Assembly: GCF_024346585.1 (NCBI RefSeq)
Contig: NZ_AP024523.1
Coordinates: forward strand, 1,807,001-1,871,000
Direction of reading: 5' to 3'
Length of the DNA stretch: 64,000 nucleotides
Source of the DNA: Streptococcus toyakuensis
GTDB lineage: Bacteria; Bacillota; Bacilli; Lactobacillales; Streptococcaceae
Positions 25,493 through 58,241 of this stretch are shown piece by piece (position 1 is the first letter of the stretch; each line of letters starts with the position of its first letter). The notes below the pieces were generated by a model, which saw only the letters and a program-made list of their open reading frames with translations, had not been told where the DNA came from and ran no database searches. Position numbers and translations under genes: made by a program.

Positions 25493-26256
<764 letters not shown>

Positions 26257-26906: not shown

Positions 26907-27366
26907 TATCCTCTCTCCTTTCGTGGAAGCGTGCTAAACCATTCCACGCTTCCCGAACAGGGAGGTTTGTTATTCCACCAAAGCATATTGAGCTTTCAAT
27001 GTGTTTTGATAGGCTAACGAGCCATTGTTCTTTGAAAACTGAATAAAAGTAATCGAATACGTTTCGATAAGAAAAGAGCCAACGGAACTAACCGCCATGA
27101 CCTATCTTATAAAGATAGCGAGCGATTCATGTTAGTGATCCGAGAAGCAATCTTTAGCAGGATTGCCTGCAACGACATTCTTATCGTGATAATGATACTC
27201 CCATACAGTCAATAGTCCGAGCGTGATAAAACCGTCGCAGGCAATGAGTATGGCTACATGAGAACCATGCAGGGGTGGAACTCCCGTGAGCTTTGCTAAA
27301 GCTGTTCGATTGCTGGTAAAACAACTTTTATGAAATCCAAATAAGTGATTTGGAAAGGAGGATTTT
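26907..27366 (+). other. leader region between orf8 and xis
   Basis: A 460-bp stretch with no well-supported plus-strand gene. It opens with a hairpin (26925-26953, GGAAGCGTG pairing with CACGCTTCC) and then has many short repeats around GATAAG/CTTATC. This may be a structured leader for xis-int. The antisense frame orf5 (27132-27383) lies here. Confidence 0.5.
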
Positions 27367-30524: not shown

Positions 30525-33500
30525 ATGAGAAAAATACCATCTCAAACTGAGAAAAAAATGGTTTACAGCATCCGTTCCCTCAAAAATGGAACTGGTTCTG
30601 TCCTTATTGGAGCAAGCCTTGTCCTGCTTGCCATGGCTACACCAACTATCTCAGCAAACGAAAATACACCAACCACTAACGAACCCAGCAACAGAAATAC
30701 GACCTCCCTTACTCAACCTCTTACTGATGCAACAAACATCGCTGGCAAGAACGAAAGCGATTTTTCTTCACCTGATAGTGCAAACGCTTCCCTAGAGAAA
30801 AAAGAAGAAAAAGCTGCAACAGAGGTACCCACTCCTGCTACAACACCAGCCGATTCAGCCCCACAAACCGGACAAGATCGTTCAAGTGAACCAACTACTT
30901 CTACGAGTCCAGTAACGACTGAAACTAAGGCAGAAGAACCAATAGAAGACAACTACTTCCGTATCCATGTCAAAAAGCTTCCTGAAGAAAACAAGGATGC
31001 TCAAGGACTATGGACTTGGGACGATGTTGAAAAACCATCTGAAAACTGGCCTAACGGAGCCTTGTCCTTTAAGGATGCCAAAAAAGATGACTATGGCTAC
31101 TACCTAGATGTCAAATTAAAGGGAGAACAAGCCAAGAAAATTAGCTTCCTCATCAATAATACAGCTGGGAAAAATCTAACCGGCGATAAATCGATAGAAA
31201 AACTGGCACCAAATATGAATGAGGCTTGGTTGGACCAAGAACACAAGGTTTTCTCTTACGAGCCACAACCTGCAGGAACTATTCGCGTCAACTACTACCG
31301 TACAGATGGCAACTATGACAAGAAATCTCTCTGGTACTGGGGAGATGTGAAAAATCCAAGTAGTGGTGAATGGCCTAACGGAACAGATTTTACGGCTACA
31401 GGCAAATATGGTCGCTATATCGATATTCCACTCAAAGATGCAGCTAAAGACCTTGGATTTTTATTACTAGACAGAAACAAACAAGGAGACGATGTGAAAA
31501 TCCGTAAAGAAGATTATAAGTTCACAGATTTAAAAAATCATAGCCAAATTTTCCTAAAAGACGATGATGAATCGATTTACACAAATCCATACTATGTCCA
31601 TGATATCCGTATGACAGGAGCCCAACACGTAGGTACTTCTAGCATTGAGAGTAGTTTTTCAACACTTGTCGGTGCTAAAAAAGAGGATATCCTCAAACAC
31701 TCTAACATCACTAATCACCTAGGAAACAAAGTAGCTATTACTGATGTTGCAATAGATGAAGCTGGTAAGAAAGTGACCTACAGCGGAGATTTCTCGGACA
31801 CAAAACATCCATATACTGTTAGCTACAATTCCGACCAATTCACTACCAAAACAAGCTGGCGACTTAAAGATGAGACATACAGTTATGATGGCAAACTTGG
31901 AGCTGACTTAAAAGAAGAAGGAAAACAGGTTGATTTAACCCTTTGGTCACCAAGTGCTGATAAGGTTTCTGTCGTTGTCTACGACAAGAATGACCCTGAA
32001 AAAGTGGTTGGAACTGTCGCTCTTGAAAAAGGGGAAAGAGGAACTTGGAAACAAACTCTAGATAGCACAAATAAATTAGGAATCACAGATTTCACTGGCT
32101 ACTATTATCAATACCAAATTGAACGTCAAGGTAAAACTGTTCTTGCACTCGATCCTTACGCTAAGTCCCTCGCTGCTTGGAATAGTGATCTTGCAAAAAC
32201 AGACGCTTCCCATAAAGTGGCTAAAGCCGCCTTTGTAGATCCAGCCAAACTAGGACCTCAAGACTTGACTTATGGTAAGATTCACAACTTCAAGACTCGT
32301 GAAGATGCCGTTATCTACGAAGCTCATGTGCGTGACTTCACTTCAGATCCCGCTATCGCAAAAGACTTGACCAAACCATTTGGTACCTTTGAAGCCTTTA
32401 TTGAAAAACTAGACTACCTCAAAGACTTGGGTGTAACCCACATCCAGCTCCTTCCCGTCTTGTCTTACTACTTTGTCAATGAATTGAAAAACCATGAACG
32501 CTTGTCTGACTACGCTTCAAGCAACAGCAACTATAACTGGGGATATGATCCTCAAAACTACTTCTCCTTGACTGGTATGTATTCAAGCGATCCTAAAAAT
32601 CCAGAAAAACGAATCGCAGAATTTAAAAACCTCATCAACGAGATCCACAAACGTGGTATGGGAGCTATCCTAGATGTAGTGTATAACCATACAGCCAAGG
32701 TCGATATCTTTGAAGATTTAGAGCCAAACTACTACCACTTTATGGATGCTGATGGGACACCTCGCACTAGCTTTGGTGGTGGACGCTTGGGGACAACCCA
32801 CCATATGACCAAACGACTCCTAGTTGACTCTATCAAATATCTAGTTGATACCTACAAAGTGGATGGATTCCGCTTCGATATGATGGGAGACCATGATGCA
32901 GCTTCTATTGAAGAAGCGTACAAGGCCGCACGCGCCCTCAATCCACACTTAATCATGCTTGGTGAAGGTTGGAGAACCTATGCTGGTGATGAGAACATGC
33001 CTACTAAAGCTGCTGACCAAGATTGGATGAAACATACCGATACTGTCGCTGTCTTCTCAGATGACATCCGTAACAACCTCAAGTCTGGTTATCCAAACGA
33101 AGGTCAACCTGCCTTTATCACAGGTGGCAAGCGTGATATCAACACTATTTTTAAAAATCTCATTGCTCAGCCAACCAACTTTGAAGCTGATAGTCCTGGA
33201 GATGTTATCCAGTATATCGCAGCCCATGATAACTTGACCCTCTTTGACATCATTGCCCAGTCTATCAAAAAAGACCCAAGCAAGGCTGAAAACTATGCTG
33301 AAATTCATCGTCGTTTGCGACTTGGAAATCTCATGGTTTTGACAGCTCAAGGAACTCCATTTATTCACTCTGGTCAGGAATATGGTCGCACCAAACAATT
33401 CCGTGACCCAGCCTACAAGACTCCAGTAGCGGAGGATAAGGTTCCAAACAAATCTCACTTGTTGCGTGATAAGGATGGCAATCCATTTGACTATCCTTAC

Positions 33501-34421
33501 TTCATCCATGACTCTTACGATTCGAGTGATGCTATTAACAAGTTTGACTGGACTAAGGCTACAGATGGTAAAGCTTATCCTGAAAATGTCAAGAGCCGTG
33601 ACTATATGAAAGGTTTGATTGCCCTTCGTCAATCTACAGATGCCTTCCGACTTAAGAGTCTCCAAGATATCAAAGACCGTGTCCACCTCATCACTGTTCC
33701 AGGCCAAAATGGTGTGGCAAAAGAGGACGTGGTAATTGGCTACCAAATCACTGCTCCAAACGGTGATATCTACGCAGTCTTTGTCAATGCGGATGAAAAA
33801 GCTCGCGAATTTAATTTGGGGACTGCCTTTGCCCACCTCAGAAATGCTGAAGTTTTGGCAGATGAAAACCAAGCAGGACCAGTAGGAATTGCCAACCCTA
33901 AAGGACTTGAGTGGACTGAAAAAGGCTTGAAATTAAATGCCCTTACAGCTACTGTTCTTCGAGTCTCTCAAGGTGGTGCCATCGTTGCCCCAGCTGTGGA
34001 AGAAAAACCAGAATTTGACCTTTCTAGCTTAAAACAAGAACAAGGGCAATATAATATCCAAGACAATATTCCAAACCGAGTAGTCAAACCGGAACAGCAA
34101 ACTCCAGCTCCACAGGCTAAACCTGATTCTGCAAAACCAGATGCAAAAGTAGCCGATGCGGAAAATAAACCTAGCCAAGCTACAACTGATTCACAAACTT
34201 CACAACCAACACAAGAAGCACAAGCATCATCTGTAAAAGAGGCGGTTCAAAACGAATCGGTAGAAAACTCTAGCAAGGAAAATAAACCTGCCCCCCTAGC
34301 TAAACAAGCTGAACTTCCAAATACAGGAACCAAAAACGATCACAAACTCCTGTTTGCAGGAATTAGTCTCCTCACCCTTCTAGGTCTCGGTTTCTTACTA
34401 AAAAACAAAAAAGAGAACTAA
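30525..34421 (+). CDS. spuA: cell-wall-anchored pullulanase (SpuA type)
   Basis: A 1,298-aa enzyme cutting alpha-1,6 branches of glycogen, starch or pullulan at the cell surface. The signal peptide is of the YSIRK-like class (VYSIRSLKNGTGSVLIGASL). Two N-terminal CBM41-type glycan-binding modules follow (about 140-370, WTWDDVEKPSENWPNG and WYWGDVKNPSSGEWPNG), then CBM48 and a GH13_14 catalytic domain. Catalytic residues: Asp near 784 in DGFRFDMMGD, Glu near 814 in LGEGWRTY, Asp near 902 in AAHDNLTL. It ends with LPNTG, a hydrophobic segment and KNKKEN for sortase anchoring. SpuA binds lung glycogen in pneumococcus and contributes to virulence. Confidence 0.95.
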   Translation: MRKIPSQTEKKMVYSIRSLKNGTGSVLIGASLVLLAMATPTISANENTPTTNEPSNRNTTSLTQPLTDATNIAGKNESDFSSPDSANASLEKKEEKAATEVPTPATTPADSAPQTGQDRSSEPTTSTSPVTTETKAEEPIEDNYFRIHVKKLPEENKDAQGLWTWDDVEKPSENWPNGALSFKDAKKDDYGYYLDVKLKGEQAKKISFLINNTAGKNLTGDKSIEKLAPNMNEAWLDQEHKVFSYEPQPAGTIRVNYYRTDGNYDKKSLWYWGDVKNPSSGEWPNGTDFTATGKYGRYIDIPLKDAAKDLGFLLLDRNKQGDDVKIRKEDYKFTDLKNHSQIFLKDDDESIYTNPYYVHDIRMTGAQHVGTSSIESSFSTLVGAKKEDILKHSNITNHLGNKVAITDVAIDEAGKKVTYSGDFSDTKHPYTVSYNSDQFTTKTSWRLKDETYSYDGKLGADLKEEGKQVDLTLWSPSADKVSVVVYDKNDPEKVVGTVALEKGERGTWKQTLDSTNKLGITDFTGYYYQYQIERQGKTVLALDPYAKSLAAWNSDLAKTDASHKVAKAAFVDPAKLGPQDLTYGKIHNFKTREDAVIYEAHVRDFTSDPAIAKDLTKPFGTFEAFIEKLDYLKDLGVTHIQLLPVLSYYFVNELKNHERLSDYASSNSNYNWGYDPQNYFSLTGMYSSDPKNPEKRIAEFKNLINEIHKRGMGAILDVVYNHTAKVDIFEDLEPNYYHFMDADGTPRTSFGGGRLGTTHHMTKRLLVDSIKYLVDTYKVDGFRFDMMGDHDAASIEEAYKAARALNPHLIMLGEGWRTYAGDENMPTKAADQDWMKHTDTVAVFSDDIRNNLKSGYPNEGQPAFITGGKRDINTIFKNLIAQPTNFEADSPGDVIQYIAAHDNLTLFDIIAQSIKKDPSKAENYAEIHRRLRLGNLMVLTAQGTPFIHSGQEYGRTKQFRDPAYKTPVAEDKVPNKSHLLRDKDGNPFDYPYFIHDSYDSSDAINKFDWTKATDGKAYPENVKSRDYMKGLIALRQSTDAFRLKSLQDIKDRVHLITVPGQNGVAKEDVVIGYQITAPNGDIYAVFVNADEKAREFNLGTAFAHLRNAEVLADENQAGPVGIANPKGLEWTEKGLKLNALTATVLRVSQGGAIVAPAVEEKPEFDLSSLKQEQGQYNIQDNIPNRVVKPEQQTPAPQAKPDSAKPDAKVADAENKPSQATTDSQTSQPTQEAQASSVKEAVQNESVENSSKENKPAPLAKQAELPNTGTKNDHKLLFAGISLLTLLGLGFLLKNKKEN

Positions 34422-34496: not shown

Positions 34497-35261
34497 TCAA
34501 ATCATATATTCTACACTATAGGTCGCATCCGAAAGAATTCGTGCCAAAAATTGCTTGGTTCGTTCTTCCTGTGGGCGACTAAAGAAATCATGGGCATTAT
34601 TTTCTTCAACAATTTTCCCGCCATCCATAAAAATGACATGATTGGCTACATCTCTAGCAAAACCCATCTTATGTGTCACTACTACCATAGTAACTCCTTC
34701 TTTAGCTAACTGTTTTAAAACATCTAAAACATCCCCTACCAACTCTGGATCCAAGGCCGATGTCGGCTCATCTAATAAAATGACCTCTGGTTTCACAGCG
34801 ATGGCACGGGCAATACCGATTCGTTGTTGCTGACCTCCAGAAAGCTGAGAAGGATAATAATCTTTATAAGCTAGTAAACCAACCTTTTCTAAGGCAACTT
34901 CCGCACGTTTAGTTGCTTCTTCCTTAGGAATTTTCCGAGCAATCACCAGGCCCTCCAAAATATTTTCCAAGGCCGTTTTATTAGCAAATAAATTATAATG
35001 TTGAAAAACAAAGGCGGTCTTCTGGCGAATTTCTAAAATATCTTTTTTGGTCAATTTGCCAAGATCGTAGTCTTTGTCAGCAAGCTTCAAAGAGCCACTA
35101 TCGGCTTTTTCTAAATGATTGAGACATCTGAGAAAAGTCGTTTTACCTGATCCAGATGGCCCCAATATTACAACCACATCCCCTTGGTTGACCTTGAGAT
35201 TAACATCTTCTAAGACTTGTCTGTCTCCAAATTTTTTTGCAACATGTTCTACTTGTAACAT
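34497..35261 (-). CDS. polar amino-acid ABC transporter ATPase
   Basis: A 254-aa ATPase of the GlnQ/TcyN type. Walker [10 protein letters not shown] near residue 34, signature LSGGQQQR near 138, Walker B VILLDEP near 158, H-loop VVVTHKMG. Last gene of a seven-gene minus-strand operon, 9 bp after its permease. It energises uptake of the ligand bound by the product of 36723-37601. Confidence 0.93.
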
Positions 35262-35270
35262 TGTCTCCTC

Positions 35271-35993
35271 CTATGCTAAACCTGTACGGGGCACTACTTG
35301 TCCCTGTTCTCTTCGAATATAGCGTTTCTCTAAGAGTGAAAAACCCCATTGAATCAAACCGCAAATAAGAATGTACTGTAAAAAGATAACAAAGTATGAT
35401 TCAAAATACTGATAACCATAAGACGCTTCAACACGGGCAATAGCTGTAATATCCTTAATGGTCATCACAAAGACCAAAGAGGTTCCTTTTACAATATTTA
35501 TGACTAGATTCGCAAGATTAGGCAGGGCTGAACGCAAGGCCTGTGGAAAAAGAATCCTCACATAGGCCTGACTATTACTCAATCCAATCGCTTGTGCAGC
35601 TTCTAATTGTCCCTTATCCACAGTCAAAATAGCCGAACGTAAGATTTCTGATAAACTACCCGTTGTCATTAAGCTATAGATAATAAAGGCATAATAGATC
35701 GGATTGAGTTTAAAGATATCAACATTACTTCCTATGCTTTTAAGAAATTGATTGAGCAAACTCGGAAACAAACTATAAAAGAAAAGAATCAGCAAAATCG
35801 GAGGTGTTGCTCTTATAAAAGCTAGATACACGAGAGAGAAAGTTCGAACACCTTTGACTTTATATATTTGTCCCAGAGCTAAAAACAAGGCTGGTAGAAA
35901 ACTTAAGACCATGGCTACAATCATGATAATCAAGGTGGTCGGTACCCCTTTTAAGGTCTCTAAAAAGGTTTTTGCAATATAGTCTAAATCCAT
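35271..35993 (-). CDS. amino-acid ABC transporter permease (second)
   Basis: A 240-aa permease of the HisM/GlnP type with about five membrane helices and the coupling EAA loop (EAAQAIGLSNSQAYVRILFPQALRSALP). It follows the first permease by 3 bp. Two different permeases plus one ATPase resemble TcyLMN-type cystine/sulfur amino-acid systems, although substrate cannot be fixed from sequence. Confidence 0.92.
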   Translation of the reverse strand: MDLDYIAKTFLETLKGVPTTLIIMIVAMVLSFLPALFLALGQIYKVKGVRTFSLVYLAFIRATPPILLILFFYSLFPSLLNQFLKSIGSNVDIFKLNPIYYAFIIYSLMTTGSLSEILRSAILTVDKGQLEAAQAIGLSNSQAYVRILFPQALRSALPNLANLVINIVKGTSLVFVMTIKDITAIARVEASYGYQYFESYFVIFLQYILICGLIQWGFSLLEKRYIRREQGQVVPRTGLA

Positions 35994-35996
35994 ATC

Positions 35997-36689
35997 CTAT
36001 CTCCCTTTCGTTTCCAAAGATTTTTCTAACAAGCGACTCAAGAAGGAAACAGCCAAAGCTAACCCCCAATAAAGAATGGCAACCGCTGTATAGGTTTCAA
36101 GAGAGTAATTCCCCAAGTTGCGACTGATTAAGAGATTCCCAGCCCCCATGACATCCACAAAACCAATCGTATAGGCTAGGGCAGCGTCCCGCATCAAATT
36201 TAGAATAGCGGTCGTCACATTTGGAAGGGATACTTGAAAAGCCTGAGGAAAAATGATTCTCCAAAATGTCTGACTAGGTGTCAGACCAATACTGACTCCA
36301 GCTTCCATCTGACCTTTGGGAATTGCCTGATAGGACGCCTTAAATACTTCTGCAATGATAGCCGCAAATAGCAAGACCATAGTGAATAAGACAAAGACCG
36401 TCTTAGACCAGTTGTTGATATCTAAATTCAACCACCATTTTAAAAATTCAGGTAAACCATAAAAGACTAAAAACAGTAAGACAATGGGGGGAGTACAGCG
36501 AAGAGTGAAAATATAGCCCTTGGAAAGACCTGCAAAAGTCTTGTCTTCTCCCACTTGAGCCCAAGCCAATAAGCCACCGAAAAGGGAACCAAGGATTGTA
36601 GTAAAAAAGAGAATGGACAAGGTCATAGGAAGAGCCTGCCATAAGGTGGGTAAAAATTGGAACACTCTTGAAAAATCATATGAAACCAT
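35997..36689 (-). CDS. amino-acid ABC transporter permease (first)
   Basis: A 230-aa HisM/GlnP-type permease with an EAA loop (MEAGVSIGLTPSQTFWRIIF). It pairs with the permease at 35271-35993 to form the membrane channel. It lies 33 bp after the binding-protein gene. Confidence 0.92.
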   Translation of the reverse strand: MVSYDFSRVFQFLPTLWQALPMTLSILFFTTILGSLFGGLLAWAQVGEDKTFAGLSKGYIFTLRCTPPIVLLFLVFYGLPEFLKWWLNLDINNWSKTVFVLFTMVLLFAAIIAEVFKASYQAIPKGQMEAGVSIGLTPSQTFWRIIFPQAFQVSLPNVTTAILNLMRDAALAYTIGFVDVMGAGNLLISRNLGNYSLETYTAVAILYWGLALAVSFLSRLLEKSLETKGR

Positions 36690-36722
36690 GTAAACCTCTT
36701 TCTAACATGCCTGCTTGCTTAT

Positions 36723-37601
36723 CTAATCTTTATCAACGTAACTAAAGACATCTTCTTTAAAGTATTTTTGAGAAAGTTTAGCTAGAGTGCCGTCTTCTTT
36801 TAATTCTTTAATCGCTTTTTCATACTCTTTAGCAAACTTCTCGCCCTTTTCATCACGGTGAATCAATGGATAGGTTGGGATTCCTTTATAAGGGAACCAG
36901 CTAAGTTTGTCCGCATATTGGTGGTAAGAACCATCCTCTGCTGTCACTGCTTTTTCAAAAGACAACTTGATATCAAAGAAGGCATCGTATCGTCCTTCTA
37001 AAACCCAAGCATAAGCATCTGCCACCTTGAATGATTCAGCAGCTGTCAACTCAATTGGTGTATCCTTATGCTTGTCATTATAGCTATTGATGACATTCCA
37101 CTGGGCATTTTGAGGAGAGATGGGTACTAATTTTCCTTTATTTTTGGCGAAATCATCAATATTCTTATATTTGGCTTCATCTTCTTTTCTAACAGTAAAA
37201 CCAATAATGCTGGCTCCTACTGGCTCAGATGGAATAATGAATTTCTTAGCCCGTTCATCTGTATACCAAGCACCTTTAGTTCCAATATCGTACTTGCCAG
37301 ACTCAAGTCCAATCAAGAGATCATCATCACTAGTTCCAGTATACTCAAATTTATAATCTGCTAATTTCTCATCAACCGCCTTTAAAACAGCGACTTCATA
37401 ACCATCTGATCCCCCTTTTTCGTCAATAAAATCATAAGGGACATAGTTTTGAGTATGGGCAACTTTTAAAGTTGTTACTTGTCCAGACGAAGCTGCATCT
37501 GCACCTTTAGCAGATGCTCCCGCCAAAGTTCTACCAACAATCGTTGCTCCAAGAACTGCCACAACTGCAACTCCACCAATAATCCATGTTTTCTTACTCA
37601 T
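36723..37601 (-). CDS. amino-acid ABC transporter substrate-binding protein, no lipobox
   Basis: A 292-aa family 3 solute-binding protein (VAHTQNYVPYDFIDEKGGSDGYEV...; DIGTKGAWYTDERAKKF). The N terminus is a hydrophobic segment (WIIGGVAVVAVLGATIVG) with no cysteine, so it cannot be lipidated; it is either anchored by an uncleaved helix or released. Streptococcal binding proteins are usually lipoproteins, so this is unusual. It lies 11 bp after the methyltransferase gene upstream. Confidence 0.9.
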   Translation of the reverse strand: MSKKTWIIGGVAVVAVLGATIVGRTLAGASAKGADAASSGQVTTLKVAHTQNYVPYDFIDEKGGSDGYEVAVLKAVDEKLADYKFEYTGTSDDDLLIGLESGKYDIGTKGAWYTDERAKKFIIPSEPVGASIIGFTVRKEDEAKYKNIDDFAKNKGKLVPISPQNAQWNVINSYNDKHKDTPIELTAAESFKVADAYAWVLEGRYDAFFDIKLSFEKAVTAEDGSYHQYADKLSWFPYKGIPTYPLIHRDEKGEKFAKEYEKAIKELKEDGTLAKLSQKYFKEDVFSYVDKD

Positions 37602-37612
37602 ATTCTTCTCCT

Positions 37613-38611
37613 TTATTTAGCTAATGCTTCTCTCACCCACTGGATACGCTCAACTGCAATATCGCTCGGAATGGTACAATCTGCCCCAAGTATGAGGCCA
37701 TCTTTACCTGTTTCTTCTATCAAGCGTTTGGTTTCAGCTTGAATTTCTTCCTTACTGCCTCGATAAAGAAGGCCATCTTCACCGTTTTCAAATCCTCCCA
37801 GAACAGCACGACCCTTGAAAATCTCACGACCTTCTTTTAGGCTAATTCCTTCTGGACCAACTGCCCAGTTAAAAACATGAGCTGGATAGTCGGCAAAGAT
37901 ATGAATATCATTTCGAGCTCCTTCATAGCCACAGATATGAAGGATATTTACCCCACCAACCGACTTAGCCGCTTTTAAAACAGTCAGTTCACTCGGCGCA
38001 ATAATCTCCTGATAGGCTTCAGCAGAAACACGCGCATCCTGAATACTTTGCACACTGAGATAAATACCGTCTGCTCCTGCATCTTTAATAATAGCTTGAC
38101 TCAAGCTAGCGATATCTTGCGCAATCACATCAAGGACTTTTTTCAATTTCTGAGAATCTTGAACTAAGAAATCTGCAATGAGATCATCTCCACCAGACAC
38201 TTCTCCAAGTAACCATTTGAGGTAGGTCACAGGCGCAAAAATATTGTAAATAGCAACAATATCTTCCGTAAACTCCTGCTTAATCTTCTTCACTAATTCT
38301 ACCTGCTCTCTAATCCACGGATGATCTTCACCCAGAGGTTCAATCTCTGCCAACTCTTGGAGTGATTTCCCTTTACCTATAACTGGATTTGGATAAGCAA
38401 AATAGCCATCACTCATCAACTTGATAAAGTCTGGATGTAGGTCACGGATAAAACGTTTGTGACCTTGTATGTTCTTTTCAATAATCACAGGATTGGAAAA
38501 TCCCTTTAACCATTCCTCTTCTGATGTAAAGTGGTGCCAAAAACCTACAGGTACACGGTCAACTACTTCTCCTCTAAATGCTTTTAAAACCCATTCTCTT
38601 TTTTCTGACAT
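37613..38611 (-). CDS. MtaA/CmuA-type methyltransferase (uroporphyrinogen decarboxylase fold), copy 2
   Basis: A 332-aa uroporphyrinogen decarboxylase-superfamily protein, but the pattern fits the zinc methyltransferase branch: HIC (in VNILHICGYEGA) and a distal Cys (LGADCTIPSDIAVERIQW) match the His-x-Cys...Cys zinc site of MtaA/MtbA/CmuA. True heme-type UroD is not expected in a streptococcus, which lacks tetrapyrrole synthesis. It is a paralogue of 38827-39834 and precedes the transporter genes, suggesting action on the imported compound. The methyl donor and acceptor are unknown. Confidence 0.85.
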   Translation of the reverse strand: MSEKREWVLKAFRGEVVDRVPVGFWHHFTSEEEWLKGFSNPVIIEKNIQGHKRFIRDLHPDFIKLMSDGYFAYPNPVIGKGKSLQELAEIEPLGEDHPWIREQVELVKKIKQEFTEDIVAIYNIFAPVTYLKWLLGEVSGGDDLIADFLVQDSQKLKKVLDVIAQDIASLSQAIIKDAGADGIYLSVQSIQDARVSAEAYQEIIAPSELTVLKAAKSVGGVNILHICGYEGARNDIHIFADYPAHVFNWAVGPEGISLKEGREIFKGRAVLGGFENGEDGLLYRGSKEEIQAETKRLIEETGKDGLILGADCTIPSDIAVERIQWVREALAK

Positions 38612-38613
38612 CC

Positions 38614-38817
38614 CTATTCTCCATTTCTTTCTTTTTCAACTAATAAAACACTGGCAATATCATTGGTTTGAATAAAGTGAAGACTTCCTTTCTGAAAATC
38701 CTGAACTCCATGACATCTTGGCCCTTCCTTACAAGTAAGTCCCTTTGTAAGACTGATCGCAAGTAAGATGACAAAGCCGAGGGCCGTCCCTACCAATAGC
38801 CACTTTTTTCTTTTCAT
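38614..38817 (-). CDS. small membrane protein between the two methyltransferases
   Basis: 67 aa: an N-terminal membrane helix (KWLLVGTALGFVILLAISL), then a short outside segment with two cysteines (TCKEGPRCHG) that could form a disulfide or bind metal. Spaced 9 bp after the first and 2 bp before the second methyltransferase gene, so clearly in the operon. I do not recognise the family. Confidence 0.7.
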   Translation of the reverse strand: MKRKKWLLVGTALGFVILLAISLTKGLTCKEGPRCHGVQDFQKGSLHFIQTNDIASVLLVEKERNGE

Positions 38818-38826
38818 AAGGCCCTC

Positions 38827-39834
38827 CTATTCTAAAATAGCAGCCTGACGAATCCAGTCTAATCTTTCTAATTCAAAGTCATCTGGAACTGTGCAATCTG
38901 CTCCAAGAAGAACTCCTCTACGTCCAGCCTCATCTAACAAGCGTTTGGTTTCCTCTTGTAGTTTAGCCTTGCTACCTCCATAAAGCAGGCTCTGCTTCCC
39001 ATTTTCAAAACCACCCAAGACCGCTTTGCCATGAAATAGCTCCTGACCTTGAGGTAAACTGACTGCTTCATGGTGGGTTGCCCAATTGAAAACCTGGGCT
39101 GGATAATCTTTGAAAATAGTCACATTGTTACTGGCACCTTGGAAACCGCAGATATGCAGGATATTTACCCCACCTACCTGATTGGCAGCTTCTAAAACCT
39201 TTATGTTGCTTGGCTCGATATAGGTCTGATACAATTCTGCTGTGATGCGCTCATCCTGAATTTCTTGTGTACTGAGATAGATTCCATCTGCTCCACCATC
39301 CTGAATGATTGCCTTGGTTAGGATTGCGATATCCTCAGCTATTACATCTAAAATCTCCCTGAATAGCTCTGGATTTTCGAGTAATAGATTAGCAACCTCC
39401 TTATCACCTCTAGAAGTCTCTGTACGAAACCAACGTTTCAGGTAGGAAATCGGAGAAAAGATATTGTAGAATGAAGCAATGTCCTCAGTGAAGGTTGCTC
39501 GAATAGCTTCTACCACTTCTACTTGTTGCTGAATCCAAGGATGGTTTTCACCAATCGACTCAATAGAAGCCAGCTCCTGAATACTTGAAACCAAAGGACT
39601 GTAGACATTACTTGGATAAATGAAAAATCCGTCACTCATCATTTTGACAAAATCAGGATGAATTCTTTCAACGTACTTCCGATGTCCCTCTACACTTTTT
39701 TGAAAGATACGTGGGTTATTTAAACCTTGCCCTTTTTCCTCCAGTGTTACAAAATGAAACCAAAAGCCTACAGGAACTCGTTCCACCTCTTCTCCTCGGA
39801 TGGCTTTAAAAACCAGCTCTCTTTTACTTGTCAT
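38827..39834 (-). CDS. MtaA/CmuA-type methyltransferase (uroporphyrinogen decarboxylase fold), copy 1
   Basis: A 335-aa first gene of the operon. ATG 39834 has GAAGGAG eight bases upstream; a GTG 13 codons earlier lacks an RBS. It is strongly similar to the copy at 37613-38611 (shared VPVGFW, HPDFVKMMSDG-type, GGADGIYLS and VGGVNILHICG segments). The same zinc ligands are seen: HIC in ILHICGFQGA and Cys in LLGADCTVPDDFEL. It probably transfers a methyl group to or from a thiol; duplication suggests two different substrates or a heterodimer. Confidence 0.85.
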   Translation of the reverse strand: MTSKRELVFKAIRGEEVERVPVGFWFHFVTLEEKGQGLNNPRIFQKSVEGHRKYVERIHPDFVKMMSDGFFIYPSNVYSPLVSSIQELASIESIGENHPWIQQQVEVVEAIRATFTEDIASFYNIFSPISYLKRWFRTETSRGDKEVANLLLENPELFREILDVIAEDIAILTKAIIQDGGADGIYLSTQEIQDERITAELYQTYIEPSNIKVLEAANQVGGVNILHICGFQGASNNVTIFKDYPAQVFNWATHHEAVSLPQGQELFHGKAVLGGFENGKQSLLYGGSKAKLQEETKRLLDEAGRRGVLLGADCTVPDDFELERLDWIRQAAILE

Positions 39835-39914
39835 ACTTTTCTCCTTCCATTTGGATTGAAACCATCTTACCACTCCTTTTGACCTTTTCCCAATATATAT
39901 TGACTATCGACTTG

Positions 39915-39935
39915 ATTGATATTGTTTATATCAAT
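39915..39935. promoter_or_regulatory. candidate operator upstream of the methyltransferase operon
   Basis: A perfect 7-bp dyad, ATTGATA-N7-TATCAAT, about 80 bp upstream of the operon start. It lies between the oxidoreductase terminator and the first methyltransferase gene, where a regulator site would be expected. No regulator is encoded next to it. Confidence 0.4.
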
Positions 39936-39940
39936 AACGA

Positions 39941-39983
39941 AAAAATCTCTGGAAAGCTTGATTTTACTAGCTTTTCAGAGATT
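39941..39983 (-). terminator. terminator of the luciferase-like oxidoreductase gene
   Basis: AATCTCTGAAAAGCT and AGCTTTCCAGAGATT (minus strand) form a stem with one mismatch, followed on the minus strand by TTTTT. It separates the oxidoreductase from the methyltransferase operon. Confidence 0.75.
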
Positions 39984-55551: not shown

Positions 55552-55647
55552 AAAAAAATAAGCCGCCTGATTGGGCGACTTTATTTTTTATAGGGAGATT
55601 ATTATGAAAAAGTTTTAGGAGTTTAAGTTAAGGTCTTCTTAACTTAT
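55552..55647 (-). ncRNA. CiaR-dependent small RNA (csRNA), copy 1
   Basis: About 96 nt, transcribed leftward. It has the csRNA layout: promoter with CiaR repeat, a segment complementary to start regions (CATAATAATCTCCC), and a terminator GTCGCC-CAATCA-GGCGGC followed by TTATTTTTTT. csRNAs base-pair with Shine-Dalgarno/AUG regions; comC is a known pneumococcal target. The 5' end is inferred from the -10 box. Confidence 0.85.
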
Positions 55648-55653
55648 GAACTT

Positions 55654-57952: not shown

Positions 57953-58050
57953 CAAAAAACTCCACCTGATTGGGTGGAGTTAAGGGAGATTATTATGAAA
58001 AAGAAAAGTTTAGGATTTTATTAAATAAAGTTAGGAGGTCTTTATTTAAT
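57953..58050 (-). ncRNA. CiaR-dependent small RNA (csRNA), copy 2
   Basis: About 98 nt leftward. It holds two segments that can pair with Shine-Dalgarno sequences (GACCTCCTAAC and CATAATAATCTCCC) and a terminator ACTCCACC-CAATCA-GGTGGAGT followed by TTTTTT. Closely related to copy 3 over the first 50 nt. Confidence 0.88.
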
Positions 58051-58144: not shown

Positions 58145-58241
58145 CAAAAAAAGCCACCTGATTGGGTGACTTCATTAGGAGATTATGATGAAAAAAAGTT
58201 TTAGGATTTCATTAAATAAAGTTAGGAGGTCTTTATTTAAT
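58145..58241 (-). ncRNA. CiaR-dependent small RNA (csRNA), copy 3
   Basis: About 97 nt leftward. It has GACCTCCTAAC and CATCATAATCTCC anti-Shine-Dalgarno segments and a terminator GTCACC-CAATCA-GGTGGC followed by a T-run. Tandem with copy 2. Confidence 0.88.

Follow-up and report, generated by a model that had tools for sequence, protein, structure and literature searches.

Why should a streptococcus keep two enzymes of the uroporphyrinogen decarboxylase (UroD) superfamily in one operon with an ATP-binding cassette (ABC) importer of the amino-acid type? The question is raised by seven genes at 34497-39834 of a 64,000-nucleotide stretch of the Streptococcus toyakuensis genome (contig NZ_AP024523.1, positions 1,807,001 to 1,871,000), which is here called the window. 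They encode an enzyme (MT1), a small protein, a second enzyme (MT2), a binding protein, two permeases and an ATPase, and an earlier note on this DNA had proposed that they form a corrinoid-free methyl salvage system. According to the present data it is very probable that the operon supplies sulfur amino acids, and likely that its enzymes use zinc-thiolate chemistry; that they transfer an alkyl or methyl group is a nearly balanced matter, on which we lean slightly to the negative side. The supply is probably one of methionine or cysteine without vitamin B12. The core operon (one enzyme and the importer) is already known, as a transporter, and what calls for an explanation is the conserved UroD-superfamily zinc enzyme beside a sulfur amino-acid importer.

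The pairing of enzyme and importer is widely conserved, as the earlier note had expected. Of 161 relatives confirmed by scanning named genomes, the best were kept, as 79 distinct loci. In 78 of these (54/54 streptococcal and 24/25 other) the enzyme has the binding protein and both permeases as neighbours; the exception (L106) is a sequence that stops at the enzyme, and the ATPase is present in 76. Carriers of the core operon are found in Streptococcus, Enterococcus, lactobacilli, Clostridia and Treponema, with gut and rumen bacteria among them. The commonest order is enzyme, binding protein, permease, permease, ATPase; the ATPase comes first in L086 and the binding protein in L113, two binding proteins occur in L048, L049 and L114, lactobacillar plasmids have the order enzyme, ATPase, permeases, binding protein, and Nicoliella carries two enzymes in tandem. 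The last gene of the Lentilactobacillus kefiri operon belongs to the ATC_hydrolase family (PF14196; L033 12103-12642), a further hint of an unusual sulfur substrate. Beside the enzyme on an L. mucosae plasmid no importer is annotated, which speaks against a strict coupling.

Within Streptococcus the distribution is patchy, with the enzyme at full similarity in 109 of 284 genomes. In the phylum, 15 of 398 genomes gave a match at E <= 1e-10, six of them close (two Streptococcus, including the window's genome); for the ten more distant UroD matches, no importer binding-protein or permease match was seen in the stretches read, some of which are short. The second enzyme, MT1, occurs in the mitis, oralis, parasanguinis and sanguinis groups. 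The window's genome has two matches to the enzyme, and MT2 is 95-97% identical to the enzymes of loci named S. mitis, an identity that by itself points most likely to S. mitis or a species close to it.

Both enzymes belong to URO-D (PF01208), at 67.3 and 82.9 bits against a Pfam cut-off of 23.9, and the enzyme is found annotated as uroporphyrinogen decarboxylase family or as hypothetical protein. The His-x-Cys...Cys zinc pattern pointed out in the earlier note (H225, C227 and C312 in MT2) was recovered in 123 of 124 enzyme open reading frames of at least 250 aa from 83 loci and the window. Close homologues therefore keep the ligands, the lone exception being a distant UroD from Aerococcus, in which H-A-H is read by eye. 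The best solved sequence relative of the enzyme is a methylcobalamin:CoM methyltransferase, whose zinc triad is a thiol-alkyl-transfer site; the enzyme alignment, used as a profile against solved structures, yielded only one weak relevant match, 4ay7 (E 0.023). MetE is among the fold matches, and since its catalytic domain (PF01717) gave no Pfam match at E <= 0.01 among the operon proteins, the likeness to MetE is one of fold only. Neither MT1 nor MT2 matches PF02574 (MmuM/BHMT) in Pfam, and the N-terminal PVWxMRQAGR-type motif of HemE is absent, MT2 reading RVPVGFWHHF there by eye.

The Aerococcus tenax enzyme with H-A-H lies beside an importer encoded by metNPQ-type genes (L035 5167-8546), which may be another case of a UroD enzyme that was paired, independently, with a transporter of the methionine type.

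The zinc triad and the best solved relative would both suit a corrinoid methyltransferase of the MtaA/CmuA type that uses scavenged cobamide. We regard this as very improbable indeed. The earlier note had called the enzymes MtaA/CmuA-like; the resemblance turned out to be remote, as they score 40.1 and 42.6 bits against the NCBIfam cut-off of 235.4 (TIGR01463). Moreover, the B12-binding domain (PF02310) has no match in the whole genome of the window, while 12 of 14 control genomes were positive, and in a search confined to the genus Streptococcus it was over cut-off in 0 of 284 genomes. Weak matches below the cut-off were seen in five of the 284, two of which (G134 and G193) bear the operon. 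Because no genome has this domain over cut-off, corrinoid dependence in streptococci is very unlikely, and the remark that no corrinoid protein lies nearby holds at this threshold for the genome and the genus.

The link to sulfur amino acids is seen in the neighbouring genes, called by tblastn at 100 bits or more. Among the 25 non-streptococcal loci, a cystathionine-synthase/lyase-type gene lies near 14, a PatB/MalY-type gene near 13, a cysteine-synthase-type gene near five and MetE with MetF near four; sulfur neighbours also accompany two (L179 and L182) of four further close relatives from the phylum. These counts are not independent, as some of the loci are closely related or come from a single assembly as two contigs. 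The binding protein points in the same direction. In a profile search of solved proteins the best of its 18 matches was YtmK (2o1m, E 4.6e-23), with Lmo2349 and then 4c0r and 4eq9 as the next relatives; in a single-sequence search, 4eq9, 4c0r and 9d5w outranked 2o1m. We take 4c0r and 4eq9 to be GshT proteins. R117 is present in 23 of 23 aligned relatives and D210 in 20 of 23, and an Arg/Asp pair of this kind clamps amino acids in family-3 binding proteins. Thus the neighbouring genes, the TcyK-like binding protein and the T-box described below support the sulfur amino-acid likeness that had been suggested for the importer.

By eye, the binding protein of the window has a hydrophobic N-terminus without a lipobox Cys, and such proteins look membrane-anchored in Lactobacillales and lipoprotein-like in several clostridial and Treponema loci. 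A structure model of the binding protein was too weak to be used (mean pLDDT 75.2).

These same data raise the possibility of a cystine/cysteine-type importer operon in which the UroD-like protein handles a thiol or thioether by cleavage, thiol capture or protection rather than by alkyl transfer. The TcyK-like binding protein, the TcyN-like ATPase and the C-S lyase-type neighbours are all in its favor, as is the cysteine transport assignment published for tcyDEFGH of S. mutans (PMC5131005, PMC10233336; excerpts, as for the other papers cited by PMC number unless a main text is named). We judge this explanation unlikely, though by no means negligible, as transport alone would not require so faithful a pairing of enzyme and importer, the zinc triad is that of the thiol-alkyl-transfer site of the best solved relative, and the L. 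kefiri T-box is apparently specific for methionine rather than cysteine.

That T-box precedes the L. kefiri operon, ending 67 nt ahead of the enzyme gene, and E. malodoratus has another in front of a patB-type gene, some 3.5 kb upstream of its enzyme gene. Both contain the 15-mer GAAGAUGAGCUCUGA, which occurs 17 times in 198 Lactobacillales genomes, 16 times with a T-box core 112-132 nt downstream. The specifier was first read by eye as AUG, and one positional analogy would give UGA; since the distance from specifier to GAA box varies among control T-boxes of the window's genome, the AUG reading relies mainly on the downstream genes. Ten proteins encoded behind T-boxes with GAAGAUGAGCUCUGA were scanned. 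Six best match MetQ, MetN, MetA, cystathionine synthase, PatB and the B12-independent methionine synthase, four of these matches falling under curated cut-offs, and four are not methionine-specific (one OppA-like, two aminotransferase-like and one with no family at E <= 1e-30). Together, these sequence comparisons support a T-box that is apparently methionine-specific in L. kefiri.

In two genomes an apparent Met T-box is followed by the gene of a protein that looks cyclase-like by eye (L126 1927-2664 and L127 1732-2469); the L127 protein has no NCBIfam family at E <= 1e-30.

A methionine-type T-box, together with MetE among the fold matches and MetE/MetF near four of the 25 non-streptococcal loci, could also indicate that the enzyme is itself a homocysteine methyltransferase, that is, a "core" methionine synthase with an intracellular methyl donor, the importer bringing homocysteine, methionine or cystathionine. 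MesD gives a precedent for a B12-independent core methionine synthase (PMC7857596). We find this quite unlikely, given that PF01717 is not matched, that no DUF1852 (MesX) partner is found among the seven genes and that the operon co-occurs with MetE rather than replacing it. After five weaker P0003 matches (G124, G211, G219, G246 and G249) were dropped, MetE was present in 106 of 109 operon-bearing Streptococcus genomes and in 129 of 175 others, counts that, like those for PF02574, are not corrected for relatedness. Thus, the operon accompanies species that possess a methionine pathway, which would agree with a role in feeding it.

The same counts bear on S-methylmethionine import followed by S-methylmethionine:homocysteine methyl transfer, an analogue of MmuP/MmuM. 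This would fit corrinoid-free zinc chemistry and methionine supply, and the window's genome has no PF02574 match. However, PF02574 is commoner with the operon (53/109 genomes) than without it (46/175), MmuM-type and fused long forms being counted together. As this gives no sign of MmuM replacement, S-methylmethionine is less attractive as the substrate, and we consider the explanation improbable. A role of the enzyme as a stand-in for either MetE or MmuM was rejected on the co-occurrence counts.

According to the explanation that we favor, sulfur amino-acid supply, the TcyK-type binding protein and the ABC importer would take in a sulfur-containing alpha-amino acid, as the protein family, the neighbours and the regulation of relatives suggest. 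The UroD enzyme, or both enzymes in the groups that have MT1, would bind zinc through H225, C227 and C312 and activate a thiol, a step that the conserved ligands and the fold point to. An alkyl group bound to sulfur, most simply methyl, might then be moved, with no corrinoid taking part, between the imported compound and a homocysteine or cysteine thiol, which is the weakest step. The products would join the ordinary pathway through cystathionine enzymes, a PatB-type C-S lyase, cysteine synthase and MetE/MetF, and other bacteria have the genes of some of these enzymes close to the operon. With all steps as proposed, this explanation is held tentatively, at slightly under even likelihood. A bolder form of it is possible and rather doubtful: the enzymes would be a new family of B12-free zinc thiol alkyl/methyl transferases in the UroD superfamily with its own importer, through which oral streptococci, kefir lactobacilli and other bacteria turn a methylated or alkylated sulfur amino acid from outside into methionine or cysteine, MT1 together with the small protein being a streptococcal addition that serves a second substrate.

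Several observations weigh against this explanation. Thioethers are poor methyl donors without a corrinoid, and the donor would therefore probably be a sulfonium or otherwise activated compound. A fourth zinc ligand (Glu), which MtaA has, is not apparent in the enzymes, whose aligned strand reads N248-W249; MetE likewise has Glu as a zinc ligand (PMC7857596). Sulfur-gene neighbours were found in 0 of the 54 streptococcal loci, and in the phylum set they are missing from L180 and L181. A T-box reached the gathering score in only two of 18 relatives' loci scanned (L. kefiri and one of five Enterococcus), and before the window's operon no Rfam leader did. In a scan with the published CmbR consensus, the window's upstream region was matched by 18% of shuffles, and it is not among the 12 of 20 upstream regions whose scores were reached by at most 5% of 60 shuffles (these keep base content only). 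D210 is missing in the two lactobacillar binding proteins and is Asn in a clostridial one, so ligands may differ among lineages. The related TcyK of Listeria has cystine and cysteine, and not methionine, as its ligands (PMC9239247).

If alkyl transfer without B12 is true, the enzymes would form a new branch of the UroD superfamily, in which the O-, S- and halogen-demethylases are known to be corrinoid-dependent (PMC10418091), and oral bacteria would have a route to methylated sulfur nutrients. What the enzyme does can be tested, given the Met-type T-box and the neighbours of the C-S lyase type.

The features of the operon are collected in the table below. All seven genes lie head to tail, with gaps of 9, 2, 11, 33, 3 and 9 nt in 5' to 3' gene order; coordinates, strand and Pfam assignments confirm the tightly packed set that the earlier note described, at the positions it gave. 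The start of MT1 is placed at an ATG after GGAGAAAAG, an alternative in-frame GTG at 39873 being possible, and the ATPase scores 320.5 bits against TcyN, under the NCBIfam family cut-off of 406.

Table. Genes and upstream region of the operon, in window coordinates
Feature	Position	Strand	Remarks
MT1 (UroD-superfamily enzyme)	38827-39834	-	335 aa from ATG; zinc triad present
Small protein	38614-38817	-	67 aa, single transmembrane segment or secreted; no Pfam match; co-occurs with MT1
MT2 (UroD-superfamily enzyme)	37613-38611	-	332 aa; H225, C227, C312; widely conserved copy
Family-3 binding protein	36723-37601	-	SBP_bac_3 (Pfam); TcyK/YtmK-like
ABC permease A	35997-36689	-	BPD_transp_1 (Pfam)
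ABC permease B	35271-35993	-	BPD_transp_1 (Pfam)
ABC ATPase	34497-35261	-	ABC_tran (Pfam); best NCBIfam match TcyN
Upstream region	39835-39960	-	palindrome ATTGATATaaacaATATCAAT at 39915-39935; downstream GATAG..ATATATT block

The palindrome was considered as a conserved operator and rejected, as it is perfect only in the window and in L036 among the loci compared; by eye, the GATAG..ATATATT block is common to other streptococci. With the CmhR consensus, none of the 20 upstream regions stood out at the 5% level, and before the other streptococcal locus scanned (L086) no riboswitch exceeded the Rfam gathering score.

A protein of 66-67 aa lies between the two enzymes in all 38 named loci where MT1 precedes MT2, greater lengths reflecting start choice or masked bases only. 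The motif of the small protein was matched in 37 of these, L042 being one residue off. Its C-terminal part reads D/N-(I/L)-A-x-x-L-L, with Asn for Asp at D53 in L043, and over eight diverse rows only M1, D53, A55, L58 and L59 are invariant. The bis-cysteine membrane protein of the earlier note stands as a gene, and its cysteine pair proved to be limited to mitis/oralis rows, loci of the parasanguinis/sanguinis type having a protein of equal size and place without it. Judging from the hydrophobic N-terminus and the charge pattern, the C-terminus probably lies outside. A profile search gave 423 clusters, and the organisms named in the 120 rows listed are all streptococci. The protein may be a transporter subunit, a peptide or an inhibitor.

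Elsewhere in the window, the gene of a large surface protein of the LPxTG type, which by eye resembles a pullulanase, is convergent with the operon (30525-34421, plus strand). Three members of the csRNA family of Cia-dependent small RNAs lie on the minus strand (55556-55648, 57955-58050 and 58147-58241), and Rfam matches to SQ2397 and pemK RNA on the plus strand (25740-25969 and 27189-27289).

The earlier note knew of no described system of this make-up, which does not hold for the core operon. Genes SMU.932-936 of S. mutans have the same order (UroD-like, binding protein, two permeases, ATPase), and the window differs by the second enzyme MT1 and the small protein. We presume SMU.932-936 to be tcyDEFGH, names that are used in separate papers; the five-gene layout fits. 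The printed C-terminal decapeptides of SMU.932 and SMU.933 (PMC10782952, Table 1) are exact and stop-ended in L144 and L148, both of which hold the full core operon. SMU.932 is there called "hypothetical", SMU.932-936 are elsewhere called predicted amino-acid ABC transporters (PMC10900908), and tcyDEFGH is described as a cysteine transport operon activated by HomR together with metBC (PMC5131005). Thus a function has been published for the orthologous operon, which the earlier note would have counted against its proposal, and it concerns the transporter only. Among the open-access papers that the searches listed, leaving aside those that mention SMU.932-935 in passing, we recognized none on the function of this UroD-like enzyme. 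The TcyJKLMN systems of B. subtilis and Listeria have the same binding-protein family (TcyK/YtmK); for the Listeria operon the excerpt names a monooxygenase and an FMN reductase and no UroD enzyme (PMC9239247).

Type 1 mlp clusters likewise contain several UroD-superfamily paralogues and are tied to methyl-sulfur metabolism, but in those clusters, which belong to obligate anaerobes, a corrinoid protein and a RACE activase are encoded as well (Kountz and Balskus, PMC10418091), whereas neither protein was found by Pfam/NCBIfam among the seven genes of the window; the words Streptococcus, Lactobacill and ABC transporter are absent from the main text of that paper. MtaA and CmuA have the H-x-C...C ligands in common with the window enzymes, which differ from MtaA/MtbA and CmuA in being far under the family cut-offs, in having no corrinoid partner and in the fourth ligand, which is not apparent. 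Finally, MetE and the core methionine synthases (MesA-D) have PF01717, unlike the window enzymes, and the operon occurs together with MetE; with these synthases the window enzymes share the fold and three of the zinc-ligand types.

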